NCBI RefSeq assembly: GCF_002849655.1
Contig: NZ_PDNW01000024.1
Coordinates: 1 to 49,951 of the forward strand
From: Pollutimonas subterranea
Lineage (GTDB): Bacteria > Pseudomonadota > Gammaproteobacteria > Burkholderiales > Burkholderiaceae_B
Direction: 5' to 3'
Length of the DNA stretch: 49,951 nucleotides
Part shown: in pieces, positions 15,369 to 49,951 of the stretch
Layout of the letters: each line of letters begins with the position of its first letter
How positions within the stretch are numbered: the stretch's first letter is position 1
Notes under the pieces: model-generated
What the model was told of the DNA's origin: nothing
What the model saw: only the letters and a program-made list of their open reading frames with translations
Databases searched by the model: none
Program-made: the position numbers and the translations under genes

Positions 15369-15389
15369 ACCAGCCACGGAGAGCCATTT

Positions 15390-36217: not shown

Positions 36218-36376
36218 TCAAGGGTTGCCGGCTGTCATCCCGGCAAGATCCATCACGATGCGCAGCAGGTAGGCGGCGATAGCCAGGGCAGCGATACTCG
36301 CGCCCCAAATACCTACGAGCCACGCGATGCGTTTAGGCCAGGACGGGCGTGGAGTTTTGCTGTTGTTTTCTGCCAT
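36218..36376 (-). CDS. DUF2474 small membrane protein associated with CIO oxidase
   Basis: This 52-residue protein (MAENNSKTPRPSWPKRIAWL and onward) has one TM helix at about 18-42. The PxWPKRxxWLVGIW start is the DUF2474 signature. These peptides follow cioB in many Proteobacteria and are thought to play a CydX-like stabilising role in the bd-type oxidase complex; that role is inferred by analogy. Its start overlaps the cioB stop (TGATG), so translation is coupled. A 110-residue frame that includes it begins inside cioB and is not credible. Confidence 0.85.
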   Translation of the reverse strand: MAENNSKTPRPSWPKRIAWLVGIWGASIAALAIAAYLLRIVMDLAGMTAGNP

Positions 36377-37383
36377 CAGTGATAGCCATCCTGTGCCGTC
36401 ACCTTGCCCCGGAATACGTAATAGGACCACGCGGTATACATCAGTATAAGCGGCACGATGAGCAAGGCGCCTACCAGCGTGAAGCCCTGGCTCTGCGGCG
36501 GGCCGGAGGCATCCCAAATGGTTATATCGGGCGGAATGATATTCGGCCATACGCTGATCCCCAGGCCGCTATACCCCAGGAATACCAGGGCCAGTGTCAG
36601 CAGAAAGGGGGCTGCGTGAGGACGGTTGTTCAAGGACCGCAAAAGAAAGTAGACCGCCAGCAGCACCAGCAAAGGCACGGGTGCAAACCAGAACAGGTTG
36701 GGCAGGCTGAACCAGCGCTCGGCGATGTCACTGTGTGTCAAGGGCGTCCAGATGCTCAACACCACTATCACCGCCAGCAATACCAGTGTCAACGGCCTAG
36801 CGAGCTGCCGCATCCGGTCCTGCAAGGGTCCCTGCGTCTTGAGGATAAGCCAGGTGCACCCCAACAAGGCGTATGCCGCGATCAGGCCCAGACCCGTAAA
36901 AATCGAAAAAGAATTCAGCCAGTCGAGCGCGCCGCCCGCATAAGAGCGATTCACGACGTTGATTCCATGGATATAGGCGCCCAGCGTCACTCCCTGGAAG
37001 AACGTAGCCGCGACGGAGCCGCCGATGAACGCCTTGTCCCAAAGGTGGCGCCGATGCGCCGGCGCCTTGAAGCGAAACTCGAAGGCGACGCCCCGAAATA
37101 TGAGCCCGAGCAGCATGAATATGAGCGGCAGCATGAAGGCGCTGAGGATTACCGAGTACGCCAACGGGAAAGCCGCCAGCAAGCCGGCGCCACCCAGCAC
37201 GAGCCAGGTTTCGTTGCCATCCCACACTGGAGCGACGGTGTTCATCATGACGTCGCGATCTTCTTTGCCCGTGACGAACAAATACAGTATGCCGATACCG
37301 AGGTCGAAGCCGTCCATGACGACATACATCAGGATGCCGAACAGAATGATAATTGCCCATATCAGGGCCAGATCAATACCCAT
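36376..37383 (-). CDS. cioB: Cytochrome bd-type (cyanide-insensitive) quinol oxidase subunit II
   Basis: This 335-residue inner-membrane protein with eight or nine TM helices belongs to the CydB/CioB family. The N-terminus is characteristic: GIDLALIWAIIILFGILMYVVMDGFDLGIGILYLF, then NTVAPVWDGNETWLVLGGAGLLAAFPLAY. These carry the conserved acidic residues of the proton path and quinone-oxidase core. It follows cioA by four bases and overlaps DUF2474. With CioA it forms a quinol:O2 oxidoreductase that works at low oxygen and resists cyanide and NO, useful beside an NO-producing pathway. Confidence 0.95.
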   Translation of the reverse strand: MGIDLALIWAIIILFGILMYVVMDGFDLGIGILYLFVTGKEDRDVMMNTVAPVWDGNETWLVLGGAGLLAAFPLAYSVILSAFMLPLIFMLLGLIFRGVAFEFRFKAPAHRRHLWDKAFIGGSVAATFFQGVTLGAYIHGINVVNRSYAGGALDWLNSFSIFTGLGLIAAYALLGCTWLILKTQGPLQDRMRQLARPLTLVLLAVIVVLSIWTPLTHSDIAERWFSLPNLFWFAPVPLLVLLAVYFLLRSLNNRPHAAPFLLTLALVFLGYSGLGISVWPNIIPPDITIWDASGPPQSQGFTLVGALLIVPLILMYTAWSYYVFRGKVTAQDGYH

Positions 37384-37387
37384 GATT

Positions 37388-38824
37388 CTATCCTCGGTTT
37401 ATGCTGACTTGTTCATGGGACTCATCGCTGTCCGGCGCCGCCGACAGAGGCCGGCTTGGCGTGTTGGGTTCACCGGGGCCGCCTTCAGGAGGGCCATCCA
37501 TCGCCATCAGGACAGGCCCCTTGCGGATCAAGGCCAGAATGTAGAGCGTGCCCGCGCCGAACAAGACGAAGTACACGACGACAAAAAGCGCCAGCGTGAT
37601 TCCGACTTCAAGTGCTCCATGCGGCGTGACCGCGTCGGCCGTGCGCATTACGTTGTAGACGATCCAGGGCTGGCGCCCTATCTCGGTGGTAAACCAGCCT
37701 GCCAGTATGGCGACAAGGCCGCTGGACCCCATATATAAGGAGAACCGCCACAAGCCCCTGGATTCGAACAGTCGGCCACGCATGCGCGCCACAAACGCCC
37801 ATAGGGCCAGCGCAATCATCAATATGCCGAGTCCGACCATGATGCGGAATGTCCAGAACACGACCAGTGCATTGGGCCGATCCTCCCTGGAGAACTCTTT
37901 AAGGCCGGCAAACTGCCCGGTCCAGCTATGGGTGAGTATCAAGCTGCCCAGGTGCGGGATCTCAAGGGCAAAATGATTTTTCTCTTCCTCCATATCGGGC
38001 CAGCCGAATAAGGTAAGCGGAACGCCCTCTTCGCTGGGACCATTTTCCCAATGCCCTTCTATTGCGGCTATCTTGGCGGGCTGGTGCTTGAGCGTGTTCA
38101 GGCCGTGAAAGTCGCCGATCACCGCTTGCAGCGGCGCCACGGCGAGTATCATCCACATGGCCATGGAGAGCATTTTGCGAATGGCCTGGTTATCGTTCTT
38201 GCGCAATAGATGCCAACTGGCCGAAGCGCCTACCATCAAGGCTGTGGCCAGGAAGGCGGCCACGCCCATGTGCGCGAGCCGATAAGGAAACGAAGGATTG
38301 AAAATAACTGCCAGCCAGTCGACCGGCACCACCCGTCCGTTGATGATCTCGTATCCGGCGGGCGTATGCATCCAGCTGTTGGAAGCCAGGATCCATGTCG
38401 CGGATATCAGCGTGCCCAGCGCAACCATGATGGTGGACAGGAAATGCAAGCCAGGGCCGACACGAGACCAGCCGAACAGCATCACACCCAGGAACCCTGC
38501 TTCCAGGAAAAACGCAGTCAGCACTTCGTAAGCAAGCAACGGGCCGGTCACGCCTCCGGCGAAATCCGAAAAATAGCTCCAGTTGGTACCGAATTGGTAG
38601 GCCATGACCAGCCCCGAAACCACGCCCATGCCGAAGTTCACGGCGAAAATCTTGATCCAAAAATGGTAGAGGTCACGGTATACGGTATTTTGGGTCTTGA
38701 GCCAGCAACCTTCCAGGACTGCCAGGTAGCTGGCAAGACCTATCGTTATGGCTGGAAAAAGGATGTGGAACGAGATCGTAAAGCCAAACTGGATCCGGGC
38801 CAGCAATAGCGCGTTGACATCCAT
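37388..38824 (-). CDS. cioA: Cytochrome bd-type (cyanide-insensitive) quinol oxidase subunit I
   Basis: This 478-residue catalytic subunit carries haems b558, b595 and d and oxidises quinol. The start MDVNALLLARIQFGFTISFH includes the haem-ligand H20, and GAGGAG lies upstream. Conserved segments are QFGTNWSYFSDFAGGVTGPLLAYEVLTAFFLEAGFLGVM, the Pro-rich WRPWIVYN-type element (GRQPWIVYNVMRTADAVTP) and the FVVVYFVLFGAGTLYIL helix. At 478 residues, with a short Q-loop, it belongs to the CioA class rather than long-loop E. coli CydA (522). It is first in the cioAB-DUF2474 operon, possibly with nrdJ downstream. Confidence 0.95.
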   Translation of the reverse strand: MDVNALLLARIQFGFTISFHILFPAITIGLASYLAVLEGCWLKTQNTVYRDLYHFWIKIFAVNFGMGVVSGLVMAYQFGTNWSYFSDFAGGVTGPLLAYEVLTAFFLEAGFLGVMLFGWSRVGPGLHFLSTIMVALGTLISATWILASNSWMHTPAGYEIINGRVVPVDWLAVIFNPSFPYRLAHMGVAAFLATALMVGASASWHLLRKNDNQAIRKMLSMAMWMILAVAPLQAVIGDFHGLNTLKHQPAKIAAIEGHWENGPSEEGVPLTLFGWPDMEEEKNHFALEIPHLGSLILTHSWTGQFAGLKEFSREDRPNALVVFWTFRIMVGLGILMIALALWAFVARMRGRLFESRGLWRFSLYMGSSGLVAILAGWFTTEIGRQPWIVYNVMRTADAVTPHGALEVGITLALFVVVYFVLFGAGTLYILALIRKGPVLMAMDGPPEGGPGEPNTPSRPLSAAPDSDESHEQVSINRG

Positions 38825-38949: not shown

Positions 38950-40734
38950 TCAATGATTGTTTCTTGACTCACCACGTTTCTGGATGACATCCAGGTATGC
39001 CGTTGCCGGCTCCAGGCAGGCGCCAGTGGCGTGCTGCCCGACCATGCCTCGATATATTTCTTCCCAAGGCGTCTGATTCACCAGTTGCGGTTTCACCCAC
39101 GCTGCCTTTCTTTGTGCCAGCTCTTCGTCGGAAACCAGTAAATCCACCCGACAATTGTTCAAGTCGATACGTATCATGTCCCCGGTGTTGAGCAGGGCCA
39201 GACCGCCTCCGATTGCCGCCTCGGGTGTTACGTTGAGGATGGACGGACTGGCCGACGTGCCGCTTTGCCGACCGTCACCCATTGTGGGCAAGGTTTCAAT
39301 ACCCCTGGAAATCAATGAGGCCGGAGGTTGCATGTTTACCACTTCAGCCCCTCCCGGGTAGCCGACCGGCCCGCAATTGCGGATAACCAGCAACGTCATC
39401 TCGTCAACGCCAAGGTCCGGATTCTCGATCCGGTCATGATAGTCTTCAGGGCCCTCAAAGACGACCGCCTTCAAATCGACAACGTTCGGATGAGCGGGGT
39501 CCGATAAGAAGCGCGCCCGGAACTCGGCATCGATGACGCTGATCTTGATCACGGCGCTATCGAAAAGGTTGCCGCTAAGCACGATATAGCCGGCGTCGTC
39601 CAGCAAGGGACTTTGGTATTTACGAATGACATCACGGTCGGGCTCCTGAACGCCCTCCAGGTTCTCCTGAATGGATTTTCCCGTTACCGTCATGGCGCCG
39701 CCATTAAGCTTGCCTGCCAAAAGCAGTTCTCTCATGACGGCCGGAACGCCGCCGGCGCGGTGAAAGGACTCGCCCAGGTAACGGCCTGCCGGCTGGCAAT
39801 CGACAAGCAAAGGAATTTTCGGGCCCAGGCGCTGCCAATCGTCCAGCGTATGGTCAACGCCCATGTGGCGCGCGATGGCGATCATGTGGATGGGACAATT
39901 GGACGATGCGCCAAGCGCCGCCGCCGCGACCACAGCATTTTCGAATGCTTCTTGGGTCATGATGTCCGAAGGACGGAGATTTTCGTGCACCATGCCGACG
40001 ATGCGCCGGCCGGTTTCATAGGACATCCAGCCACGCTCGCGGTATGGTCCGGGTATTGCGGCGCAGCCCGGCAAGGACATGCCCAGGGCTTCAGCCAGCG
40101 AATTCATCGACAAGGCCGTGCCCATCGTATTGCAATGACCCACAGAAGGGGCGGACGAGGCGACGTTATTCATGAATTCGTCATAATCGATTTCACCGGC
40201 CGAGAAGCGCTTGCGGGCATCCCAGACGACCGTTCCGGAGCCGGCTAGCTTCCCTTTCCACCAGCCGTCCAGCATCGGTCCACCCGACAGCACGATAGCA
40301 GGAATATTGACCGTGGCCGCCGCCATCAGGCAGGCGGGCGTCGTCTTATCACAGCCGGTCGTAAGCACGACACCGTCCAGTGGATAACCATGCAGGACTT
40401 CCACCAAGCCCAGGTAGGCCAAGTTTCTGTCCAGCGCCGCGGTCGGACGCTTGCCGGTTTCCTGGATGGGGTGCACAGGAAATTCAAGAGGGATACCGCC
40501 CATGTCGCGTATGCCGTCCCGCACCCGGGATGCCAGCTCTATATGGTGTCGATTGCACGGAGAGAGGTCGGAACCGGTTTGCGCAATCCCGATAATGGGC
40601 TTGCCCGACTGCAGTTCTTCCCGGGTGATTCCGTAATTCATATAGCGTTCGAGGTACAGGGCGGTCATCCCGGGATCCGACGGATTATCGAACCACCGGC
40701 GACTACGCAGCCGAGCACTGTCAGGTGTTGCCAT
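38950..40734 (-). CDS. IlvD/Edd-family sugar-acid dehydratase (arabonate/xylonate dehydratase-like)
   Basis: This 594-residue protein starts at ATG 40734 (MATPDSARLRSRRW), after AAGGGG; the frame is 34 codons longer. The three expected [2Fe-2S] cysteines are C60 (DLSPCNRH), C128 (TTGCDKTTPAC) and C201 (VGHCNTMGTA), the spacing of L-arabonate and D-xylonate dehydratases, which also share this length. The branched-chain-amino-acid enzyme IlvD itself is usually in a biosynthetic context, unlike here. It would convert an aldonate to a 2-keto-3-deoxy acid. It is the last gene of the operon that also encodes a KDF-type dehydrogenase and an FAH hydrolase, so it supplies their substrate. The sugar (arabinonate, fuconate, xylonate, rhamnonate, others) is not determined. 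Confidence 0.9.
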   Translation of the reverse strand: MATPDSARLRSRRWFDNPSDPGMTALYLERYMNYGITREELQSGKPIIGIAQTGSDLSPCNRHHIELASRVRDGIRDMGGIPLEFPVHPIQETGKRPTAALDRNLAYLGLVEVLHGYPLDGVVLTTGCDKTTPACLMAAATVNIPAIVLSGGPMLDGWWKGKLAGSGTVVWDARKRFSAGEIDYDEFMNNVASSAPSVGHCNTMGTALSMNSLAEALGMSLPGCAAIPGPYRERGWMSYETGRRIVGMVHENLRPSDIMTQEAFENAVVAAAALGASSNCPIHMIAIARHMGVDHTLDDWQRLGPKIPLLVDCQPAGRYLGESFHRAGGVPAVMRELLLAGKLNGGAMTVTGKSIQENLEGVQEPDRDVIRKYQSPLLDDAGYIVLSGNLFDSAVIKISVIDAEFRARFLSDPAHPNVVDLKAVVFEGPEDYHDRIENPDLGVDEMTLLVIRNCGPVGYPGGAEVVNMQPPASLISRGIETLPTMGDGRQSGTSASPSILNVTPEAAIGGGLALLNTGDMIRIDLNNCRVDLLVSDEELAQRKAAWVKPQLVNQTPWEEIYRGMVGQHATGACLEPATAYLDVIQKRGESRNNH

Positions 40735-40777
40735 GACAACATTCCCCTTGAATAGATTTAAAAATAGTCGATAAAAA

Positions 40778-41815
40778 TTACAGCGCTTGCGCCTTCTTGG
40801 CTTCCGCCATGACGGCGTCCACGGTCGGCTCGCCAATCTTGACCTTCAGGTCAGCAAGAATCGGAGCCAGGTCCTTGCGGATTTTTTCCTTTTCATCCGA
40901 GGAGAATTCAGACACTTTCACGCCCTTGCCCTTCAAGTAAGTCAGGGCCTCGATGGCCGCTTCACGGCTCACCTTGCGTTGAAACGCCTGGGATTCCTTG
41001 GCCGCCTGGCGAAGCACGTTGTGCTCATCGGCCGACAGGCCGTCCCACCATTTCTTGGAAGCCAGCAGCACGAATGGCGTATAGACGTGGTTGGAGATCG
41101 TCAGGTAAGGCTGGACTTCGTAGAACTTGCTGGTCTGGATGGTGCTCAACGGATTTTCCTGGCCATCGACCGTCTTGGTTTCAAGCGCGGTGAACAACTC
41201 CGTAAATGGCATGGGGATGGCGTTGGCGCCCAGTCCCTTGAACACGCTGAGTGCGACCTGGTTCTGCATGACGCGCAGCTTGATGCCGTCAAGGTCCTGC
41301 GCCTTGTTTATGGCAAGGCGCGAGTTGGTGATATTGCGGAAACCGTTTTCCCAGTACAGCAAGCCGATCAGTCCCTTGTCGGTCAGTTTGTCGAGCAGCT
41401 TCTTGCCTTCCGGACCATCCAGGACCTGGTCGGCCACCTTTTCGTTATCGAACAGGAAGGGCAAGTCGAACACGCCGAATTCCTTGACCATGCCCGCCAA
41501 AGGAGCCGTCGACACGAATGTCATCTCCTGGGAACCGCCGATCAGGGCATTCTGCATCTGCTCGTCCGAGCCCAATGCGCCATTTCCGTAAGTCTTGACG
41601 TTCATCTTTCCGCCGCTCAGGCGACCCACCTGTTCGGAAAAATGGCGCGTGGCCTGGCCCGCCGGGCTGTCATCGGCCAGACCATAGCCGAAACGGATGA
41701 TGCGGGTCTTGATGTCTTGCGCCATGACCGATTGCGTCGAGAGGCCCACGGCGGCAATCGCCGTAAAGCCCACAACCATATTCCTGATACTGAACGTCTT
41801 TTTCAACAACAACAT
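40778..41815 (-). CDS. dctP: TRAP transporter substrate-binding protein (DctP type)
   Basis: This 345-residue periplasmic protein starts at ATG 41815 (MLLLKKTFSIRNMVVGF) with AAGGGTGG upstream; an in-frame GTG three codons earlier is less likely. The signal peptide ends STQSVMA-QDIK. DctP hallmarks: ARHFSEQV-type N-lobe, ENGFRNITNSRLAI, then LDGIKLRVMQNQVALSVFKGLGANAIPMPFTELFTALETKTVDGQENP, including the conserved Arg of KLRVM. The close QENP motif places it in the DctP/SiaP-like sugar-acid group. It lies 27 bp after its dctM and 43 bp before the dehydratase gene, so the substrate is probably an aldonate or uronate. Confidence 0.93.
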   Translation of the reverse strand: MLLLKKTFSIRNMVVGFTAIAAVGLSTQSVMAQDIKTRIIRFGYGLADDSPAGQATRHFSEQVGRLSGGKMNVKTYGNGALGSDEQMQNALIGGSQEMTFVSTAPLAGMVKEFGVFDLPFLFDNEKVADQVLDGPEGKKLLDKLTDKGLIGLLYWENGFRNITNSRLAINKAQDLDGIKLRVMQNQVALSVFKGLGANAIPMPFTELFTALETKTVDGQENPLSTIQTSKFYEVQPYLTISNHVYTPFVLLASKKWWDGLSADEHNVLRQAAKESQAFQRKVSREAAIEALTYLKGKGVKVSEFSSDEKEKIRKDLAPILADLKVKIGEPTVDAVMAEAKKAQAL

Positions 41816-41842
41816 AGTTTCCACCCTTTAATTGATTTAGTA

Positions 41843-43123
41843 CTAATAAAACCAGCGCAACGGAGCCAATACGATTTCTGGAAAAATCACCAGCAGCGCG
41901 ATCAGACCCGTATACGCCAACACATATGGCCACACACCTTTGATGATGTCTTCCATTCTGATCTTGGCGACGCCGCACACCACGTTCAGGACAGTACCCA
42001 CCGGCGGCGTCAATAAGCCGGTACATCCCACCATTATGAAAATCACACCAAAATAAGTAGGGTCGATTCCCGCTTTCTTGATCACCGGCATCAACACCGG
42101 CGCCAGGATCAGGATGGTCGGCGTCAAATCCATGGCTGTCCCGATCAGTACAAGCAGGATGACAATGCAGAACATCAGCAACATGGGAGAATCAATCAGA
42201 GGCCCGAGCATACCGATCAGCGCCTGTGGCAGGTCGGCCAGTGTGATCATGTACGAGGTGACCAATGCGGCAGCCACCAGGAACATGACAATGGCCGTGG
42301 TCATGGCCGCATTGACCAGCAAGGGATACAGGCTCTTGATGGTGATTTCCTTGTAGACCACCATCCCGACAAACAACGCGTAGACCGCGGCGACAGCGGC
42401 CGCTTCGGTTGGCGTAAAAATGCCGAAACGCAAACCGCCAATAATGATGACCGGCAGGAACAAGGCCCAACCCGCATCCTTGAACGTCTTGGTGCGCAAG
42501 GACCAAGGTTCTTTCGGCGAGGACAACATGGTTTTCGAACGCGACGAAATAAACGCCCACACCATTACCAGGGTAAGACCCATCAGCAAACCGGGAACAA
42601 TGCCGGCAATAAACAGCTTGGTTACCGACACATTGGCCGCGACACCAAAGATAATGAATGAGATGGATGGCGGAATAATAGGAGCGATAATGCCGCCGGC
42701 GGCGATCAGGCCCGTAGCCTGGTTCATGTCGTAGCCACGGCTGCGCAGCATGGGTACCAGCATGGCCGCCAGTGCCGCCGCGTCGGCGACCGCCGAGCCG
42801 GACAGCGCCGCGAGCAGGATGCTGGCCATGATGGCGACATAGCCCAGTCCGCCCTTGATGTGTCCGACGAACGCGCTTGCCAGCGCCACCATGCGGCGCG
42901 ACATGCCGCCGGCGTTCATCGCCTCGCCCGCCAGCATGAAAAGAGGCACCGCCATCAAGGCAAAACTGTCGGCCCCCGTAAGCATATTCTGCGCCAGTAT
43001 CTGGGCGTCGAAAAAGGACAAATGAAACATCAGGGCGATGGCGCTGAGCAATAGCGCGAAGGCAATGGGCACGCCGAACGCCATAAAGCCGAGCAAGGTG
43101 CCCACAAAGATAAATACGGTCAT
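41843..43123 (-). CDS. dctM: TRAP transporter large permease (DctM type)
   Basis: This 426-residue membrane protein is the translocation subunit of the second TRAP system. Visible family segments: GVPIAFALLLSAIA, AVPLFMLAGEAMNAGGMSRRMVALA, LSGSAVADAAALAAMLVPMLRSRGYD, GPIIPPSISFIIFG (here APIIPPSISFIIFG) and GCTGLLTPPVGTVLNVVCGVA. About 12 TM helices are expected. It lies between dctQ and dctP in the order Q-M-P. Confidence 0.94.
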   Translation of the reverse strand: MTVFIFVGTLLGFMAFGVPIAFALLLSAIALMFHLSFFDAQILAQNMLTGADSFALMAVPLFMLAGEAMNAGGMSRRMVALASAFVGHIKGGLGYVAIMASILLAALSGSAVADAAALAAMLVPMLRSRGYDMNQATGLIAAGGIIAPIIPPSISFIIFGVAANVSVTKLFIAGIVPGLLMGLTLVMVWAFISSRSKTMLSSPKEPWSLRTKTFKDAGWALFLPVIIIGGLRFGIFTPTEAAAVAAVYALFVGMVVYKEITIKSLYPLLVNAAMTTAIVMFLVAAALVTSYMITLADLPQALIGMLGPLIDSPMLLMFCIVILLVLIGTAMDLTPTILILAPVLMPVIKKAGIDPTYFGVIFIMVGCTGLLTPPVGTVLNVVCGVAKIRMEDIIKGVWPYVLAYTGLIALLVIFPEIVLAPLRWFY

Positions 43124-43174
43124 AACAACTCTATTGGATGTTGATGGATGCGAACTCGAGGCGCCGGCGCGGTG

Positions 43175-43735
43175 TCAGACGTCTTCAACGTAGTCGTAGG
43201 AAGTCAGGAACTTGCTTGCATTCCCGGGTATGGCTGGCGCCCTGATGGCGACATAGAGATCGGCGAGGATCATCAAGGCCATCGCGGTAGCGCAAAACCA
43301 GACGGCTCCGCTAAAGATGGCAATGGGCACACCGGCTACGGGCGTCACGGTGCTGAGGCCAATCACGGTTTGCGCCCATCCCCCGTCTATCAACAACCAG
43401 AGAACGGCCAGTATCAGCAGCTGGCGCACTATGTGGATGACCTTCTGTTGCTTCACGGGCAGTCGTACCACCAGCATATTGACCGCCAGATGCTGCTTGG
43501 CGCGAAAGGCCAGGACAGAGCCGATGAAGATCAGCCATACGAAGGTCATGCGCGCCACTTCTTCGGAAATCATGATGCCGGAATTGAAAACATACCGCAT
43601 GACAACATTGCCGAAGACGAGAATCAGCATCAATAACAAACTGAATGCCATGACGGCCGCAAGCACGCCGTGCAAGACGTCCCCGGCTTTCTTTGCGAAT
43701 ACTGCTGCCCTGCTCTTATCATCCACCAACATCAA
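43175..43735 (-). CDS. dctQ: TRAP transporter small permease (DctQ type)
   Basis: This 186-residue four-TM protein carries the DctQ patterns NVVMRYVFNSGIMISEEVARMTFVWLIFIGSVLAFR and HLAVNMLVVRLP. It precedes dctM by 51 bp. Between it and the upstream SDR gene lie 85 bp with two small hairpins (43755-43771 and 43791-43806), which may set the relative expression of this transporter. Confidence 0.92.
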   Translation of the reverse strand: MMLVDDKSRAAVFAKKAGDVLHGVLAAVMAFSLLLMLILVFGNVVMRYVFNSGIMISEEVARMTFVWLIFIGSVLAFRAKQHLAVNMLVVRLPVKQQKVIHIVRQLLILAVLWLLIDGGWAQTVIGLSTVTPVAGVPIAIFSGAVWFCATAMALMILADLYVAIRAPAIPGNASKFLTSYDYVEDV

Positions 43736-43754
43736 AACTCCCGAAACGTGTCAA

Positions 43755-43806
43755 CAGGCCAATACGGCCTGTAAGAACTGCCTGCGCACCAGACACAAGC
43801 GTGTCT
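43755..43806 (-). terminator. Two small hairpins between SDR and dctQ
   Basis: CAGGCC-AATAC-GGCCTG (43755-43771) and AGACAC-AAGC-GTGTCT (43791-43806) each form a perfect 6-bp stem. Neither has a T-run. They lie in the only sizeable gap between the TctABC half and the TRAP half of the long operon. Confidence 0.4.
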
Positions 43807-43820
43807 TGTGCTTTACTGGG

Positions 43821-44576
43821 TCAAGGCATGTACTGCCCGCCGTTTACTTCAATGATCTGGCCCGTCACATACGCCGACATCTCGTTCGACGCGAGGTAAA
43901 GAAACGCCCCCACGCACTCCTGGGCGGTGCCGAATCGACCCATTGGTATGGACGAGCGCATGCCTTCCAATTGCTCGGCGGTGGTGAACTTTTCGTGAAA
44001 GGGAGTGGTGATCACACCCGGCGCGACCGCATTGACCCGGATGCGGCGCGGAATAAGCTCTTTGGCCAGGCCTTTGGTGATCGTGCTGACGAAGCCCTTG
44101 GATCCGGCATACAAACTGGATCCCGGCCCGCCGCCGTTGCGCGCGGCCACGCTGGTCAGATTGACGATGGATGAGCCTTCCGGCATGTGCGGCACCGCAT
44201 AGCGGGTACACATGAGCACCGAACGTACATTCAGGTTGACCACATCATCGAATACCCCATCGTTCATCTCGGTGATTGGCACGCGTTTGACCAAGGCACC
44301 GGCGTTATTGATGAGTACGTCGATACGGCCAAATTTCGCGACAGCTTCGGAAATCAAGTTCTCGCAGTCGGCCGTGTGATGCAGATCGCCCTGCACGGTC
44401 ATTGCACGTTGACCGGTGGCGTCGATTTCGTCAGCCACCGCCTTTGCGGCTTGTGGTGAAGAAAAGTAATGGACGACCACGCTGGCACCGAGGCGTCCGA
44501 ATTCCTGGGCGACTGCTGCACCGATACCCGTGGACGCACCCGTCACGACAATGACTTTGTTCTTCAGGTCATTCAT
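43821..44576 (-). CDS. SDR-family oxidoreductase (glucose-1-dehydrogenase/FabG-like)
   Basis: This 251-residue classical SDR starts at ATG 44576 (MNDLKNKVIVVTGASTGIG), preceded by AAGGAAGG. The cofactor motif TGASTGIG is at 12-19, NNAG at 90-93, catalytic S142, Y156, K160 (YAGSKG) and the usual ending GQIIEVNGGQYMP. The residue set after strand 2 (VVVHYFSS) lacks an acidic NAD-selecting Asp, so NADP use is plausible. Context suggests it oxidises the free aldose to the lactone or acts on a keto-acid intermediate. It overlaps the tctA gene by eight bases. Confidence 0.9.
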   Translation of the reverse strand: MNDLKNKVIVVTGASTGIGAAVAQEFGRLGASVVVHYFSSPQAAKAVADEIDATGQRAMTVQGDLHHTADCENLISEAVAKFGRIDVLINNAGALVKRVPITEMNDGVFDDVVNLNVRSVLMCTRYAVPHMPEGSSIVNLTSVAARNGGGPGSSLYAGSKGFVSTITKGLAKELIPRRIRVNAVAPGVITTPFHEKFTTAEQLEGMRSSIPMGRFGTAQECVGAFLYLASNEMSAYVTGQIIEVNGGQYMP

Positions 44577-46080
44577 ACTGCACCTTCCTTGCACCGTAAA
44601 ATGATTTATAAAATTTGATGAATACGGGCATGATCCAAATCAAGATAGCGAAAATGCCCAGCGCGCATGCAATAGGCCGACTGAAAAACATCAGGAAATC
44701 GCCATCGGCCTTGATCATGGAAAACACGAAGTTCTCTTCCAGCATGCCACCCAGCACGACACCCAGCACCGCCGGCGCGATGGGGAAGTCGTTTTCTTCC
44801 ATGAAGTAGGCGAGCAGGCCCACGCACAGCATGACGATGACTTCGAAAATGCTGTTATTGATGGCGAAAACACCTACGATGCAGAAGATCAGAATCAAAG
44901 GCATCAAAATATTCCGGGGAACATTCAGCACTGTCTTCGCCGCCTTGACGGCCAGGTATCCCAGCGGAAGCATGATGATGTTCGCCATGATGAACACGAT
45001 GAATACCGAATACATTTCAACCGGGCTGTTGGTGAATATCATCGGGCCGGGCGCCATATTCTTCATGTACAACACGCCAATGACGATGGCGGTGATGGAA
45101 TCCCCCGGAATTCCAAATACCAATGCGGGAATCCATGCTCCGGCCAACGCAGAATTATTCGCTGCGCCCGCCTCGACGATGCCTTCCACATGTCCGGTAC
45201 CAAATTTTTTCGGCTCTTTGGAAAAACGCTTGCTCACGCCATAAGACATCCATGCTGCGATGTCGGCCCCTGCCCCGGGCAAGGCACCTACCGCCGTGCC
45301 CAGTGTGCAGCCTCGGACGATGGACATGGGGTATTTTTTGGTCAGTCCCCACATGCCGGTAAAAATATTGCCCACACTCGCCTTGATTTCCACCCGCTTC
45401 TGCTCTGAGTTCGTGGCATAGCGCAAGACTTCAGAGATGGCGAACATGCCCACCATCATGGGAAGCAACGTGACGCCGTTCAGCAGATCTTCATTGCCAA
45501 ACGTGAATCGTGGAAATGCCGCAGGATTGTTCATGCCCACGCACGCCAGCAGCAAGCCTATGAAGAGCGACACGAAGCCCTTCAGTGTGCTGGCCGGCGA
45601 GATGAAGATGGCACACGACAGGCCGAGCACCACCAGCCAGAAAAACTCGTAGGAGGAAAAATTCAGCGCAAAATCGGCCAGCGCGGGCGCGGCAGCAATC
45701 AGCACAATGGTGCCGAACAAGCCGCCGACGAACGAAAACACAATGCTCGCGCCCAACGCGGTATCGGCCTGCCCCTTTTTTGTCATCGAGAAGGCTTCGT
45801 CGGTATAGGCCGCTGATGAAGGGGTGCCAGGAATGCGTAGCAGGCATCCGGGGATATCACCCGATGTAATGGCCATCGCCGTTGCCGTCACCATCATCGC
45901 CACAGCAGGCACAGGGTCCATGAAAAAGGTGATGGGAACCAGCAGCGCCACGGCCATCGTCGCGCTCAAGCCTGGCACCGCCCCCACAAACAAGCCGAAT
46001 ACGGCGGCAATTAGGATCACGCCCAATACGAAAGGGTCGGTGACCTGGTGGAATGCGGCAAGAAGATTCGTGAAGTCCAT
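44569..46080 (-). CDS. tctA: Tripartite tricarboxylate transporter large permease TctA
   Basis: This 503-residue polytopic protein (about 12 TM) starts at ATG 46080 (MDFTNLLAAFHQV); an earlier start would overlap tctB. The TctA family signature is visible: GVILIAAVFGLFVGAVPGLSATMAVALLVPIT, FMDPVPAVAMM, the GDIPGCLLRIPGTPSSAAYTDEAFSMTKKGQA segment and its repeat GALPGAGADIAAWMSYGVSKRFSKEP. TctA is the ion-coupled permease fed by the TctC/Bug protein encoded upstream. It lies four bases after tctB and overlaps the SDR gene by eight bases. Confidence 0.95.
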   Translation of the reverse strand: MDFTNLLAAFHQVTDPFVLGVILIAAVFGLFVGAVPGLSATMAVALLVPITFFMDPVPAVAMMVTATAMAITSGDIPGCLLRIPGTPSSAAYTDEAFSMTKKGQADTALGASIVFSFVGGLFGTIVLIAAAPALADFALNFSSYEFFWLVVLGLSCAIFISPASTLKGFVSLFIGLLLACVGMNNPAAFPRFTFGNEDLLNGVTLLPMMVGMFAISEVLRYATNSEQKRVEIKASVGNIFTGMWGLTKKYPMSIVRGCTLGTAVGALPGAGADIAAWMSYGVSKRFSKEPKKFGTGHVEGIVEAGAANNSALAGAWIPALVFGIPGDSITAIVIGVLYMKNMAPGPMIFTNSPVEMYSVFIVFIMANIIMLPLGYLAVKAAKTVLNVPRNILMPLILIFCIVGVFAINNSIFEVIVMLCVGLLAYFMEENDFPIAPAVLGVVLGGMLEENFVFSMIKADGDFLMFFSRPIACALGIFAILIWIMPVFIKFYKSFYGARKVQYE

Positions 46081-46084
46081 GACG

Positions 46085-46558
46085 TCACCACGCAATTGTT
46101 TCAAGCAGTCCCCAAGGCAAGGGCACCATGAGGACGCTATAGAACATAAAGTGGATAACGAAAGAGCCGATGGCCGCCACGGCAATGGCGAGCGGCCATC
46201 GCACCTTGAAGGCAAGGAAAAGCACCAGCAACACCAGGCCCGACGTGATGAGAAAGCCCAGGTATTCCGCCACGGCGAAATAGAAAAAGAGCGATCCAGG
46301 TATCAACAAAAACCGTAAGACCGACGCCTTGTCCCGCAACCAGGCGGGCATCATCGTGGGCGAATCAGTCTTCCGGTTTCTTAGGCCCTGGACTATCAAC
46401 AATATGGAACATGCCAGCATCCCGATGGCAATAGCGCGCGGAAACAGTCCCGCACCGAAGTTCTGGCCGGGGATTGCCGGAAAGGAAAGAGCCATCAAGA
46501 AAACGGCAATCGAAAAAATGCCGAGCACCACGCCGACGAGGGCATCATTGATCTTCAT
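46085..46558 (-). CDS. tctB: Tripartite tricarboxylate transporter small permease TctB
   Basis: This 157-residue protein with four hydrophobic helices begins MKINDALVGVVLGIFSIAVF and includes FPAIPGQNFGAGLFPRAIAIGM, the family's conserved segment after helix 1. A basic cytoplasmic loop follows helix 2. It is the small membrane subunit between tctC (77 bp upstream) and tctA (4 bp downstream). Confidence 0.92.
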   Translation of the reverse strand: MKINDALVGVVLGIFSIAVFLMALSFPAIPGQNFGAGLFPRAIAIGMLACSILLIVQGLRNRKTDSPTMMPAWLRDKASVLRFLLIPGSLFFYFAVAEYLGFLITSGLVLLVLFLAFKVRWPLAIAVAAIGSFVIHFMFYSVLMVPLPWGLLETIAW

Positions 46559-46635
46559 TGTCGCTCACAGGAAAAGGGAGGTGCCGGACAAGCCATACTT
46601 GCCTTGCCGGCCCTTCTTTGGAGGTTGCTACAGGA

Positions 46636-47616
46636 TCATTTTGCGGGTTCGCGGGCCATGCCGATGGCAGCAATGACTTCGCCGAATTCAGCTTCCGACT
46701 TCTGCATGAAGACGCCGTAATCGGCCCCGCCGGCATAGCCCACCCCGAAGCCGCGCGACTTCATGAAATCGGTGAACTCTTTGCTTTGGTTTATGTTCTT
46801 CAACGCGGCAACCATCTTTTGCGTTACGTCCTCGGGCAAGCCCTTGGGGCCGGCAATTCCACGCCAGACTCCTGTCGTCCAGTCGCTGCCTATCGATTCT
46901 TTCAAGGTCGGCACGTCGGGATACAAGGGCTCGCGCTTGTCGGCCATGACGGCAAGAGGCCTGGCCTTGCCCGCATCGATCATGGATCTCGCCTCGGGCA
47001 ATGAAGTAGGCACAATGTCTATACCGCCGGCGGCCAGTTCAAGCATGGCGGGCGCCGCACCGTTGGAAGGAACAAACGGTGCGGCCAGGGGATCGATATT
47101 GAGATTCTTGAGCAGGCCCGCCAAGGCAATGTGCCAGATGCCGCCTTGGCCTGTTCCCGAAGCCTTCAACTTGCCCGGATTGGCCTTGATGGCGTCGATG
47201 AGCTCGGCCATCGTCTTGTAGGGCGACGAAGCGCTGACCGACACCGCCGCCGGATCTACATTCATCAGGGCGAGAGGGGTGTAGTCGGCAGGGGAAAGCG
47301 TGGTCAGGCCCTGCTTCTTCATCATCGCTATCTCGACGGTCAACATGCCCAGAGTGTAGCCATCGGGCTTGGCCTTTGCGATGGCCGAGTGACCCACGAC
47401 ACCGTTACCGCCGGTACGATTGACGACGTTCACCGGTTGTCCGAGTTCTTTTTCCAGCTGAGCGGCAATAATGCGAGCGGTGGCATCCGTGCCGCCGCCA
47501 GCCCCCCAAGGCACAATCATGGTGATGGGTCTTTCGGGCCAGGCCGCATGGGCCGTGCTGACCACCAGTCCGGCAACAAGAGTCATGGCCGATTTAAACA
47601 AGAACCTTTTTTTCAT
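46636..47616 (-). CDS. tctC: Tripartite tricarboxylate transporter receptor TctC (Bug family)
   Basis: This 326-residue periplasmic solute receptor has a signal peptide ending STAHA-AWPERP. The mature start WPERPITMIVPWGAGGGTDATARIIAAQLEKELGQPVNVVNRTGGNGVVG is the classic Bug pattern, followed by SPYKTMAELIDAIKANPGKLKASGTGQGG. Unlike most Bug proteins, which are orphans in Alcaligenaceae, this one is next to its own TctBA permease and so probably has a dedicated role. The substrate may be the sugar acid or lactone processed by the operon. Confidence 0.94.
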   Translation of the reverse strand: MKKRFLFKSAMTLVAGLVVSTAHAAWPERPITMIVPWGAGGGTDATARIIAAQLEKELGQPVNVVNRTGGNGVVGHSAIAKAKPDGYTLGMLTVEIAMMKKQGLTTLSPADYTPLALMNVDPAAVSVSASSPYKTMAELIDAIKANPGKLKASGTGQGGIWHIALAGLLKNLNIDPLAAPFVPSNGAAPAMLELAAGGIDIVPTSLPEARSMIDAGKARPLAVMADKREPLYPDVPTLKESIGSDWTTGVWRGIAGPKGLPEDVTQKMVAALKNINQSKEFTDFMKSRGFGVGYAGGADYGVFMQKSEAEFGEVIAAIGMAREPAK

Positions 47617-47813
47617 TTGTCTCTCTCCAGTCTTTTATAAAAATAGTGACATGTTTTCTGAAGCGCATGCATATTGCTTACCGCTACCTGCCCATTTCCT
47701 CCTTGTATAGCGTTGAAAAAGCCATCGTGGCGCCGGACGTTTTTAGTGCATGGTAATGCCGCTCGCACGTCCGATGACAAGATAATTGACTCGGTACTTT
47801 CCCGAATGCGCGC
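47617..47813 (-). other. 197-bp intra-operon gap between FAH hydrolase and tctC
   Basis: This is the longest gap in the ten-gene operon. I see no open frame of note. It may contain an internal promoter for the transporter genes (AT-rich TCTTTTATAAAAATAG lies 25 bp before tctC), but no terminator with a T-run is visible. Confidence 0.4.
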
Positions 47814-48671
47814 CTAATCCAGCAATGCGGCATCCCAAGCATGTACCTTCTGTTCCTGCTCGCCCAAACCCTCTATGCCCAAACGCATGACGTCACCCGC
47901 TTTCAGGTACAAAGGTGGCTTCTGTCCGAGCCCGACACCGGGCGGGGTGCCCGTTGAAATCAGATCACCGGGATACAGCGTGGTGAACTGGCTGATGTAA
48001 TGAATGAGATAAGCCACATCGAAAATCATGGTTTTGGTGCTGCCATTCTGGAAGCGCTTGCCATTGACGTCGAGCCACATGGCAAGGTCTTGCGGATCGG
48101 CGATCTCATCAGCGGTAACCAGCCACGGACCAATGGGACCGAAGGTGTCGCATCCCTTGCCCTTGTCCCAAGTGCCGCCACGCTCGATCTGGTATTCGCG
48201 CTCGGACACGTCATTGACCACGCAGTATCCCGCGACATGCTTGAGCGCATCGGCCAGGCTGACATAACGCGCCTTGGAACCTATCACCACACCCAGCTCG
48301 ACTTCCCAATCGGTCTTGACGGAACCCTGTGGAATAACAACGGCGTCATTGGGGCCAGTGGGCCGAGACCACTTATTGAACAGAATGGGTTCCTTGGGCA
48401 CTTCGGCGCCAGTCTCGGCAGCATGATCGCTATAGTTCAACCCCACGCAAATAAACTTGCCCATACCTGAATAAGGCGTGCCGATGCGTCCGGGATGCTC
48501 GATGAGCGGCAGGCTGCTAACGTCGATAGCCTGCAAGGTTTTCAGCTGTTCCGGGCTCAGGCTTTCTGCGGTAATGTCGGATACCTTTCTCGACAGGTCA
48601 CGGACCTTGCCCTGGGCATCCAGGCATCCGGGCTTTTCGTTTCCAACAGGTCCATATCGCAATAGCTTCAT
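47814..48671 (-). CDS. Fumarylacetoacetate hydrolase-family protein (2,4-diketo-3-deoxy sugar-acid hydrolase type)
   Basis: This 285-residue FAH-fold protein carries metal ligands E123, E125 (DWEVELGVVIG) and D154 (GYCVVNDVSERE), plus the lysine-bearing loop LFNKWSRPTGPNDAVVIP and the C-terminal GDLISTGTPPGVGLGQKP. The length and these motifs fit 2,4-diketo-3-deoxy-L-fuconate hydrolase and ureidoglycolate-lyase-like members. With the KDF-type dehydrogenase immediately upstream (25 bp), it is best read as the enzyme that cleaves a 2,4-diketo-3-deoxy acid to pyruvate plus a hydroxy acid (lactate from a 6-deoxy sugar, glycolate from a pentose). Cytoplasmic. Confidence 0.88.
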   Translation of the reverse strand: MKLLRYGPVGNEKPGCLDAQGKVRDLSRKVSDITAESLSPEQLKTLQAIDVSSLPLIEHPGRIGTPYSGMGKFICVGLNYSDHAAETGAEVPKEPILFNKWSRPTGPNDAVVIPQGSVKTDWEVELGVVIGSKARYVSLADALKHVAGYCVVNDVSEREYQIERGGTWDKGKGCDTFGPIGPWLVTADEIADPQDLAMWLDVNGKRFQNGSTKTMIFDVAYLIHYISQFTTLYPGDLISTGTPPGVGLGQKPPLYLKAGDVMRLGIEGLGEQEQKVHAWDAALLD

Positions 48672-48696
48672 GATTTTTTCCTTTTAAATTCGTGGA

Positions 48697-49443
48697 CTAG
48701 TTGGACCAGCCACCATCAATAATATGTGTCGTACCGGTCGTAAAAGACGATTCGTCCGAGGCCAGATATACCGCCAGGGCGGCGATCTCTTGCGCCTTGC
48801 CGACTCGCCCTATGGGCTGGCGTGACACGAATGCCGCGTGTATTTCCTGCTCGGTCTTGCCGTACTTGCTGGCCTGGGATGCGATACGCCCCCTGAGCGA
48901 TGGGGACTCCACTGTGCCCGGGCAAATGGCATTGCAGCGTATGCCTTGCGAAACGAAGTCGGCCGCTACCGCCTTGGTCAGGCCGATGACAGCAGCCTTG
49001 GTGGTTCCATAGACGAAGCGATTAGGCACGCCTTTTATGCTGGAAGCTGCAGACGACATATTGATGATCGAGGCCTGGGGGCGCTGCAACATGCCGGGCA
49101 AGAATGCCCGGATCATGTGATACATGGCCGTGACGTTCAAATCGAATGAAAAATTCCAGGCATCCAGATCACAATCAAGAATGGTTCCATCGTCGACGTA
49201 GCCGGCGCAATTGAACAAGACATCGATGCCGCCAAGCTCGGCGGACAAGGCCTTTACTTGATCAGGCTTGGTGACGTCGAGGCGATGCACCTGGCAACCC
49301 GCCAGGTCGGCAAGCAAGCCTTCATTGATATCGGTGGCAATAACCCGGGCCCCCTCCGCCGCAAACAGCTCGGCGGTTGCCCGCCCTATCCCCTGCCCCG
49401 CTGCTGTCACCACTGCGGTCTTCCCAGCCAAACGACCTGCCAT
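48697..49443 (-). CDS. SDR-family 2-keto-3-deoxy sugar-acid dehydrogenase (2-keto-3-deoxy-L-fuconate dehydrogenase-like)
   Basis: This 248-residue SDR starts at ATG 49443 (MAGRLAGKTAVVTAAGQGIG), with GGAG seven bases upstream; an ATG four codons earlier (49455) is possible. The motif TAAGQGIG at 13-20 replaces the common TGASxGIG and, with RATAELFAAEGARVIATDIN and D38 at the end of strand 2 (NAD preference), is typical of the DHRS6/KDF-dehydrogenase group. Catalytic residues are S130/S131, Y145 and K149 (VYGTTKAA). It would oxidise the 2-keto-3-deoxy acid to the 2,4-diketo acid. It is first in the ten-gene operon and diverges from the broken iclR gene. Confidence 0.88.
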   Translation of the reverse strand: MAGRLAGKTAVVTAAGQGIGRATAELFAAEGARVIATDINEGLLADLAGCQVHRLDVTKPDQVKALSAELGGIDVLFNCAGYVDDGTILDCDLDAWNFSFDLNVTAMYHMIRAFLPGMLQRPQASIINMSSAASSIKGVPNRFVYGTTKAAVIGLTKAVAADFVSQGIRCNAICPGTVESPSLRGRIASQASKYGKTEQEIHAAFVSRQPIGRVGKAQEIAALAVYLASDESSFTTGTTHIIDGGWSN

Positions 49444-49512
49444 TCTTTGCTCCATTATTTTCCAGCACTCAGGACGCGCGCTTCGAAAGAATGGCGTCTT
49501 GTATTTTATTTA

Positions 49513-49525
49513 TGAAATAGCATTT
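49513..49525. promoter_or_regulatory. Candidate IclR operator, operon side
   Basis: GAAATAGCATTTC is a perfect GAAAT-N3-ATTTC palindrome 58-70 bp before the first operon gene. A near-identical site (AAAATAGAATTTC) lies at 49676-49688 near the iclR start. Confidence 0.55.
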
Positions 49526-49675
49526 CCGATTACAGCGCTTATCCTAAGCCAGACATTGCGCTCGATCAATCAAATACTGTGCGATCCGCACTAGGGATTT
49601 CCCGCTGAATAGGCGTATTCCCTAAAATACCCTCAAAACCTGAACAAAAATGTCATCAAGGAGTAATTCGTATAT

Positions 49676-49688
49676 AAAATAGAATTTC
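49676..49688. promoter_or_regulatory. Candidate IclR operator, regulator side
   Basis: AAAATAGAATTTC matches the palindrome at 49513-49525 at 11 of 13 positions. It lies 34 bp before the iclR start codon, within a very AT-rich stretch (TATATAAAATAG, CATATAAAATTT) likely to contain the iclR promoter. Confidence 0.5.
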
Positions 49689-49721
49689 TCATATAAAATT
49701 TGTTGTGTGGTCGGAGCGCTT

Positions 49722-49862
49722 ATGAATAACACCACGTTGGGCGGCACGCCAGACACGGATGAGCCACCTGCAGATAAGGTCACGCGCTACGCGGCGCCGG
49801 CGCTGGAGAAAGGGCTCGACATCCTAGCCCGGAAATTTCATTATTGTTGTAGAAACGGGTAG
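49722..49862 (+). pseudogene. IclR-family regulator truncated by an insertion sequence
   Basis: The frame encodes MNNTTLGGTPDTDEPPADKV and then TRYAAPALEKGLDIL, the well-known (Y/A)APALEKGLDIL start of IclR-type HTH proteins. At 49825 the IS begins, the frame continues with foreign residues (ARKFHYCCRNG) and stops at 49862. Only about 35 of an expected 250-270 codons remain, before the recognition helix, so the protein cannot function. The gene is divergent from the sugar-acid operon, which it probably regulated. The GCGCTTATG start has a weak GGAG a few bases upstream. Confidence 0.85.
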
Positions 49863-49951
49863 GCAATCCCGTGCCAAAGGCTTATGGTTACTGGTATTCG
49901 ACGCCACAACCAAACGGGATTGCCTATGCCAAATCGTACCACTGAACATCT
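49825..49951 (+). mobile_element. Insertion sequence edge (partial), right copy
   Basis: These 127 bases are the exact reverse complement of bases 1-127. The element starts after CTAG in the iclR gene. Inside it, TAGGCAATCCCGT (49860-49872) and ACGGGATTGCCTA (49914-49926) form a 13-bp perfect inverted repeat, and a transposase-like frame begins at ATG 49884 or ATG 49926 (MPNRTTEH) and runs off the window. Family undetermined. Confidence 0.78.

Follow-up and report, generated by a model that had tools for sequence, protein, structure and literature searches.

A predicted aldonic acid operon of Pollutimonas subterranea that contains both a TctABC importer and a TRAP importer of the CxaPQM type

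Background

The systems closest to the ten-gene operon considered here, which lies on contig NZ_PDNW01000024.1 of Pollutimonas subterranea (contig C16 in our numbering; all of its 49951 bases were analysed and are called the window below), come from work on the breakdown and the import of sugar acids. Within the Route III pentose pathway of Herbaspirillum huttiense, C785_RS20550 and C785_RS13675 jointly converted 2-keto-3-deoxy-D-pentonate (D-KDP) to glycolate (PMC6336799). The CxaPQM importer of Advenella mimigardefordensis, of the tripartite ATP-independent periplasmic (TRAP) type, has a binding protein, CxaP, that is reported for D-xylonic, D-fuconic, D-galactonic and D-gluconic acids (PMC12076931), with a KD of 1.9-8.0 uM for several substrates (PMC11668362). 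The other importer family met in the operon is that of the tripartite tricarboxylate transporters (TTT, genes tctCBA); there are bacteria with 100-200 tctC genes (table in PMC5812351). A substrate is known for few TTT systems, and a Tct system locked beside defined chemistry offers a good opportunity to identify another.

We read the ten genes as an operon by which aldonic acids are taken up and degraded non-phosphorylatively, most probably D-xylonate in the first place and D-gluconate in the second, a reading to which we would give a probability of about two in three. Gene families, key residues, conservation and modularity are observed in the sequence, and from them we infer the substrate and the order of the reactions. 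Neither the chemistry of the pathway nor its type of TRAP importer is new; what is new is the conserved composite operon with its second, unrelated importer, which sets the characterised CxaP transporter within a conserved run, next to an uncharacterised TTT system. A literature search by titles and abstract openings brought up no report of a sugar-acid operon with both TTT and TRAP importers.

Gene order and junctions

Ten intact open reading frames (ORFs), collinear and free of internal stops, occupy 38950-49455 on the minus strand. Pfam and NCBIfam searches assigned them to two short-chain dehydrogenases/reductases (SDRs), FAA_hydrolase (the fumarylacetoacetate hydrolase, FAH, superfamily), TctC, TctB and TctA, DctQ, DctM and DctP, and ILVD_EDD. 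In gene order, with L-KDF standing for 2-keto-3-deoxy-L-fuconate, they are:

48697-49455 (start probably 49443), minus strand: SDR1, predicted NAD+-type L-KDF/D-KDP (4S) 4-dehydrogenase of type 1, from matches to 8y11 and 8xwk and from residues
47814-48671, minus strand: FAH, putative FAH-superfamily 2,4-diketo-3-deoxy-acid hydrolase (FucG/LRA6-like), from the 8gsr match and His83/Glu86
46636-47616, minus strand: tctC, TTT binding protein (PF03401; nearest solved structure 4x9t)
46085-46558, minus strand: tctB, TTT small membrane subunit (PF07331)
44569-46080, minus strand: tctA, TTT large membrane subunit (PF01970)
43821-44576, minus strand: SDR2, glucose 1-dehydrogenase-like SDR (NF005559, 227.8 bits, cut-off 215)
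43175-43735, minus strand: dctQ, TRAP small permease (PF04290)
41843-43123, minus strand: dctM, TRAP large permease (PF06808, TIGR00786)
40778-41815, minus strand: dctP, TRAP binding protein, CxaP orthologue (528.9 bits to 7bbr)
38950-40734, minus strand: IlvD/EDD aldonate dehydratase of the PRK13017 subfamily, D-xylonate dehydratase-like (1029.3 bits, cut-off 684)

The junctions, in the same order, measure 25, 197, 77, 1, -11, 85, 51, 27 and 43 nucleotides (nt); eight of the nine are under 90 nt, one of these being an overlap, and the widest is that between FAH and tctC. If the ATG one codon further in is taken as the start of tctA and of SDR2, tctB and tctA are 4 nt apart and tctA overlaps SDR2 by 8 nt. 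An earlier note on this DNA, made from the sequence alone, had set out these ten genes in this order on one strand, with most gaps under 90 bp and one overlap, and the ORFs, the family searches and the junction lengths bear this out. The start of SDR1 given there, 49443, is the second ATG of that frame, with GGAG six bases upstream; the first is at 49455.

The same note had proposed a search for this gene order in relatives, and all ten genes were indeed found in the same order in two other genomes of the same genus (L046 and L047; identities 76-97%), so that the arrangement is not a matter of chance. The other two of the five genomes of this genus gave no DctP match at E 1e-80. The ten genes are presumably co-transcribed. 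An additional promoter or terminator within the 197-nt or the 85-nt gap was considered; promoter-like matches (4 against 6.4 expected) and terminator-like matches (13 against 12.5) were at chance level, and the hairpins of the 85-nt gap are not conserved in L047.

Predicted pathway and substrate

Periplasmic oxidation of aldoses would probably come first, and the resulting acids would be imported by the TRAP system. The IlvD/EDD enzyme would then dehydrate the aldonate to a 2-keto-3-deoxy acid (D-KDP from D-xylonate), SDR1 would oxidise the 4(S)-hydroxyl with NAD+, and the FAH enzyme would cleave the 2,4-diketo acid to pyruvate and glycolate, or glycerate in the case of a hexonate. Dehydration, oxidation at C4 and hydrolysis to pyruvate plus a hydroxy acid had been proposed in the earlier note, and the sequence agrees with this when set beside the described enzymes (PMC6336799, PMC11199699).

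The 4-dehydrogenase of H. huttiense (L-KDFDH) matched SDR1 at 370.8 bits (8y11) and 370.7 bits (8xwk), and 170 of 246 aligned residues are identical, above the 50% similarity to characterised enzymes that marks type 1. All twelve residues checked are kept in SDR1 (Val89, Ser137, Arg148, Tyr151, Lys155, Thr183, Leu189, Arg192, Phe211, Arg214, Gln215 and Trp252), with Lys155 placed from the usual SDR triad. They supply the arginine/Thr/Trp pattern and the catalytic Ser/Tyr/Lys of the type 1 L-KDF 4-dehydrogenases, as that pattern is given in PMC11199699, and SDR1 is predicted to be an NAD+-type L-KDF/D-KDP 4-dehydrogenase of type 1. The FAH protein scored 337 bits against 8gsr and has His83 and Glu86, the catalytic pair named for C785_RS20550.

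The nearest solved structures to the dehydratase are 7m3k and 5oyn. It carries Cys60, Cys128, Cys201 and a C-terminal His (in a C-terminal NNH), Cys201 being presumably the third cysteine of the [2Fe-2S] cluster, and its recognition helix has Leu26/Glu29/Arg30 (LYLER at 26-30), not the Tyr27/Gly30/Trp31 of the L-arabinonate enzyme; the L-arabinonate dehydratase equivalog NF009559 was missed at 530 bits (cut-off 882). The helix residues, Cys60, Cys128 and the C-terminal His are those described for the D-xylonate dehydratase of Caulobacter, CcXyDHT (PMC5770437), and in cluster cysteines, C-terminal His and recognition helix the enzyme matches the CcXyDHT type of pentonate dehydratase. Characterised pentonate dehydratases of the IlvD/EDD family accept various aldonates, provided that the C2/C3 configuration is kept (PMC5770437).

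An IlvD/Edd dehydratase had been thought unusual beside a KDF dehydrogenase and hydrolase, a view that did not hold. Among 80 named-record dehydratase loci (51 of them longer than 21 kb), the three genes are clustered on one strand in 35, a count that leaves out L089, whose three genes are 7-19 kb apart; in a further 12 the dehydratase is accompanied on the same strand by the SDR1 type without the FAH type. The D-xylonate dehydratase of H. huttiense, which feeds the same steps, is likewise of the IlvD/EDD family (PMC6336799). In some relatives (L169, L171, L172, L091, L092, L093, L098 and L150) a 390-aa protein adjoins the TRAP-dehydratase pair or the dehydratase; its assignment by a motif as a COG3970 D-KDP dehydratase, which would speak for pentonates, was not used, Pfam giving one sub-threshold match for the two tested and NCBIfam none.

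For the TRAP importer, DctP is 73% identical to CxaP (7bbr; 242 of 333 residues), with a run of 63 identical residues at 177-239. The DctP of genome G149 is 100% identical to CxaP over 333 residues, and its locus, L173, has in a row FAH, tctCBA, Ldh_2, an SDR, dctQMP, dehydratase and a GlcD-family gene. The binding protein thus has an orthologue in a conserved context, with tct, dct and dehydratase neighbours as in G149; by sequence comparison DctP is an orthologue of CxaP, and the ligands of the window's own protein are predicted ones. The scores for a 2,3-diketo-L-gulonate importer of the YiaMNO type stayed below the cut-offs (NF011634, 522.2 against 800; NF007374, 73.6 against 260). The genome of the window holds another FAH-dctP-dctQ-dctM cluster on contig C4 (L185, 13196-18370), with 42% identity in FAH and 61% in DctM.

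D-Xylonate and D-gluconate are favoured because they satisfy both the C2/C3 demand of the dehydratase and the 4(S) demand of the SDR1 family, to both of which their stereochemistry is suited; L-fuconate and L-rhamnonate appear not to fit the dehydratase. It is doubtful that the main substrate is instead D-gluconate, or D-galactonate or D-fuconate (both of which give 4(R) products), with glycerate or lactate as the product. CxaP is reported for these acids too (PMC12076931), the best solved match of the dehydratase, 7m3k, is labelled galactonate dehydratase, and 2-keto-3-deoxy-D-gluconate (D-KDGlu) is a 4(S) substrate of L-KDFDH (PMC11199699). That enzyme is, however, 12-fold worse on D-KDP and 105-fold worse on D-KDGlu than on L-KDF, which leaves D-KDGlu 8.5-fold behind D-KDP (from Table 1, PMC11199699), and the SDR1 family handles 4(R) compounds poorly, 2-keto-3-deoxy-L-pentonate (L-KDP) reaching 36.9 against 641 for D-KDP (PMC11199699).

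Two genes of the genome exceed the cut-off of TIGR03074 (PQQ_membr_DH), and sugar oxidation before uptake, as reported for Advenella (PMC5812351), would thus be possible. A GlcD-family gene 3' of the dehydratase in 10 of the 13 loci that combine Tct and TRAP, namely those of the two genera other than that of the window, was also counted in favour of the aldonate reading; its scores in four tested cases were 356-380 (equivalog cut-off 568).

A number of observations pull the other way. TIGR03074 is a glucose/quinate/shikimate family and would cover quinate and shikimate enzymes as well, and the loci of the genus itself (the window, L046 and L047) have no GlcD gene next to the dehydratase. The FAH protein reached 442.5 bits against NF053535, the 2,4-diketo-3-deoxy-L-rhamnonate hydrolase equivalog, and was not filed there because the cut-off is 500. 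The galactonate label of 7m3k counts here too, and this protein shares the recognition-helix residues in the alignment, so that these residues cannot separate xylonate from galactonate. The preference of L-KDFDH for L-KDF leaves room for L-fuconate by way of another dehydratase, and three UxaA-family genes lie elsewhere in the genome. The Advenella composite operon has the hydrolase without a 4-dehydrogenase, which in L089 is 7 kb off behind an iclR of its own and in L173 is not found in 20 kb, and the regulator gene is split in the window's own genome. The concrete prediction for this sugar-acid operon is the conversion of D-xylonate to pyruvate and glycolate, and a Route III operon for D-xylonate that is compact and brings its own importer might also find use in biotechnology.

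The Tct and TRAP modules

DctP orthologues, defined by E 1e-110 or better among 268 genomes and 43 genera of the family, occur in 72 of the genomes and 10 of the genera. All 10 genera are covered by the 44 loci inspected (the window, L046, L047, L051, L084, L166-L184 and L186-L205; the upstream sequence of L198 is incomplete), which comprise the full set of 17 whose DctP identity is 72% or higher and 27 of the 55 in the range of 53-62%. The tctCBA genes lie upstream of the TRAP genes in 13 of the 44, all of them among the 17 and none among the 27, and these 13 belong to three genera: that of the window (3), g14, judged to include Allopusillimonas (4), and g40, judged to include Advenella (6). 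Among the 80 named-record loci, this TRAP type is found on the strand of the dehydratase in 6, Tct in 4 and both in 4, the last being L086-L089, which are the loci of G095, G122, G102 and G153 and not extra genomes. The earlier note was therefore right to call TctABC and TRAP in one such operon unusual; the pairing is uncommon yet conserved, and includes the operon of the characterised CxaP. In a midpoint-rooted tree of TctA and TctC, the 13 composite copies fall into one clade of 15 in which the stand-alone copies of G103 and G047 are nested, and the fusion history that we infer from it fits two changes, either one gain and one loss or two gains.

The operon appears to be assembled from three modules, each of which is also found separately. 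These are a regulator with 4-dehydrogenase and hydrolase (IclR-KDFDH-FAH standing apart in L048 and L049), tctCBA with dehydrogenases of its own (tctCBA-Ldh_2-SDR in L253, L255 and L256), and dctQMP with the dehydratase, which is without Tct in many inspected loci, L180 and L186 for example. TctC, TctB and TctA of the window all exceed the gathering scores of their Pfam families. Eight tct loci outside the composite were examined (L052, L061 and L253-L258): six carry Ldh_2, five of these six (not L254) a different SDR as well, and L257 and L258 neither, while a UxaA-type dehydratase is present in L052, L253 and L061, and the SDR1 and FAH types in L052 and L061. As most of these loci carry other enzymes, Tct probably serves a different substrate, that is, it would probably import an acid other than that of the TRAP system, and the module evidence favours such a division.

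It is also conceivable, if somewhat unlikely, that Tct is only a passenger: it would belong to a separate catabolic module whose acid has nothing to do with the pathway, and would share the transcript merely by position. In line with this, tctCBA-Ldh_2-SDR stands apart from TRAP in the three loci named above, as do tctCBA-Ldh_2 in L254 and tct with neither gene in L257 and L258; the FAH-tctC gap varies, with 197 nt in the window and L046 and 60 nt in L047; and an operator-like site (47629, 14.2 bits) lies just before tctC, though this score is at chance level, being reached in 7 of 20 simulations. A mere passenger is harder to reconcile with a composite that is kept in 13 genomes of three genera, whether by one gain and one loss or by two gains, and with the SDR of the stand-alone module, whose 50-57% identity to the SDR adjoining LRA6-like hydrolases in four loci (L259, L261, L262 and L268) suggests related chemistry. 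This other SDR is also 53-59% identical to an SDR in tandem with the SDR1 and FAH types in L265, L269 and L270, and stands beside the hydrolase in 7 of 12 LRA6-type loci (not in L260, L263, L264, L266 and L267); its gene context suggests a possible LRA5-like 4(R) dehydrogenase.

In the genus of the window, the Ldh_2 and SDR usual beside tct are not in the operon, and SDR2 stands in their place. SDR2 is ruled out as a second KDF-type dehydrogenase, since the three substrate arginines of the 4-dehydrogenase are replaced in the alignment by Ser, Phe and Ser, and with only 31-34% identity it is not an orthologue of the SDR at the same place in Advenella and g14. Its nearest solved structures are 3afm and 4w7i, and its near relatives include, by the titles of 4w7i and 4tkl, reductases of 4-deoxy-L-erythro-5-hexoseulose uronate, a 2-keto-3-deoxy-uronate-like compound.

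Contrary to the preferred reading of two different acids, both importers could bring in forms of one substrate, either acid and lactone or epimers meeting at the same 2-keto-3-deoxy acid, for instance with TRAP taking up D-xylonate, Tct taking up D-arabinonate and another locus supplying a UxaA-type dehydratase; this we regard as unlikely. D-arabinonate and D-xylonate both yield D-KDP (PMC6336799), a UxaA-type dehydratase lies beside tct in three of the eight non-composite loci (the other five lack it in the stretch examined), contig C8 of the window's genome carries a gene of this type that is 81% identical to that of L253, and an IclR gene of 61-84% identity precedes KDFDH-FAH in some genomes and tct in others. 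The C8 locus, however, owns a MalK-type ATP-binding cassette (ABC) importer and would have no need of Tct. Lactone uptake, which the earlier note had suggested, found no support: none of the ten genes encodes a lactonase, and there is no other sign of it. On C8 (L278, 6001-26000), the UxaA-type dehydratase, a 2-hydroxyacid dehydrogenase and the MalK-type importer are divergent from SDR, Ldh_2 and GntR genes, and another TRAP system is nearby. The SDR (60% identical) and Ldh_2 (64%) adjoining the UxaA-type gene are of the tct type and there are no tct genes in the 20 kb examined, a layout in keeping with importers having been exchanged among modules, which also makes it less likely that the C8 enzymes are supplied by Tct.

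A more speculative scheme, and in our view an improbable one, is a stereochemical funnel, with the operon as one of its halves, in which TRAP would feed 2R,3S aldonates to the IlvD/EDD dehydratase and Tct would feed a second family of acids, with enzymes encoded elsewhere, either 2S,3R aldonates (UxaA-type dehydration) or 3-deoxy acids (C2 oxidation by Ldh_2), the streams meeting at one 4-dehydrogenase and hydrolase under one IclR-type regulator. If true, two unrelated importer families would have been fused by selection for a shared end-pathway, and SDR2 would add a new step, complementary in stereochemistry or in cofactor.

In L046, an amino-acid-type ABC importer (binding protein, ATPase and two permeases) lies between iclR and SDR1 at 13707-16621, which gives that gene run three importer families; the window has no room for an ABC importer. 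A similar binding protein and a similar permease frame, the latter by ORF likeness, were seen in L052 at 13638-15920.

Regulator and operator-like sites

Upstream of SDR1 the window ends with:

49456-49721: divergent control region with three operator-like sites, at 49504-49517, 49666-49679 and 49685-49698
49722-49827, plus strand: 5' part of a divergent IclR-family regulator gene, the remainder lying on contig C15 from base 128
49828-49951: end of a repeat that occurs at six contig ends of the genome, both ends of C16 included

The iclR gene, which the earlier note does not list, is cut after about 35 codons by the repeat that ends the contig, and its remainder begins near base 128 of C15 (C15 1-856, L208), the continuity of the two parts resting on a protein match. 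The uninterrupted junction, sought as a 9-base word in L046, was not found there, where the codons differ; the gene of that relative (L046:16894-17748) is intact and IclR by Pfam, and uninterrupted frames are also present in L047 and L051. With 49829-49951 as query, six full matches were obtained, all at contig ends (both ends of C16, 1-123 and 49829-49951, and ends of C2, C11, C23 and C68), plus one partial match of 29 bases inside C67. By inspection, CTAG flanks the iclR break on both sides and the inverted ends are similar, the pattern that an insertion sequence would leave on duplicating 4 bases of its target.

A divergent IclR-family gene lies upstream in several relatives; the Advenella composites L086, L173 and L177 have no iclR nearby. 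A matrix built from 17 sites near iclR genes of relatives, picked by eye and none of them from the window, has its three best matches of the whole window inside the 266-bp iclR-SDR1 interval (21.3-23.3 bits), the next being the site before tctC; the maxima of 20 Markov-simulated windows were 11.2-17.3 bits. In seven loci outside the matrix with a nearby IclR gene (L048, L049, L087, L088, L089, L167 and L168) the best site adjoins that gene, these being five distinct places (L087/L168 and L088/L167 share contigs) and relatives of the training loci, thus not independent; L086, L173 and L177 have no site above 13.4.

Neighbouring genes

On the same strand, 3' of the dehydratase and separated from it by 125 nt in which a perfect inverted repeat lies, cydA-like and cydB-like genes occupy 36376-38824, the former below the equivalog cut-offs and the latter above that of TIGR00203; frames resembling cydA and cydB, identified by likeness among ORFs, are also downstream of the dehydratase in L046. 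A further TRAP set in the window (DctM from about 23551, DctP from about 25426) is 32% and 29% identical to that of the operon.

Comparison with known systems

The enzymes resemble those of the Route III pathway of H. huttiense IAM 15032, in which an IlvD/EDD dehydratase, an NAD+ 4-dehydrogenase of the C785_RS13675 type and an FAH-family hydrolase lead to pyruvate and glycolate (Watanabe 2019, PMC6336799). There the genes lie in several clusters (PMC6336799), whereas in the window they form a single run that includes TRAP and TTT importers but no lactonase gene.

In its importer and layout the operon is closest to the CxaPQM system (PMC12076931, PMC5812351, PMC11668362) and to G149, with FAH, tctCBA, dctQMP and dehydratase in the same run. 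The G149 locus differs in having Ldh_2 and a different SDR at the place of SDR2, a GntR-family gene before FAH and a GlcD-family gene after the run, and in lacking an SDR1 orthologue in the 20 kb examined.

TTT importers have been predicted for sugar acids before, namely TctABC of Halomonas for galactarate/glucarate and a TTT system of Salinivirga, beside an IclR-type GalR, for D-galactonate (Leyn 2017, PMC5507952). These clusters share with the window a TctABC system among sugar-acid genes and, in one case, an IclR-family regulator, but in the sections of that study available to us a TRAP importer of the same pathway is not described (PMC5507952). The Halomonas loci for L-fuconate and L-galactonate likewise have COG0179 and COG1028 proteins for the late steps together with a TRAP importer, and co-localise two sugar-acid pathways (PMC5507952). 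They differ from the window in having lgoD, uxaA and uxaB/uxaF, and those same sections mention no TTT importer for them (PMC5507952), the family that in the window stands in one conserved run with TRAP.

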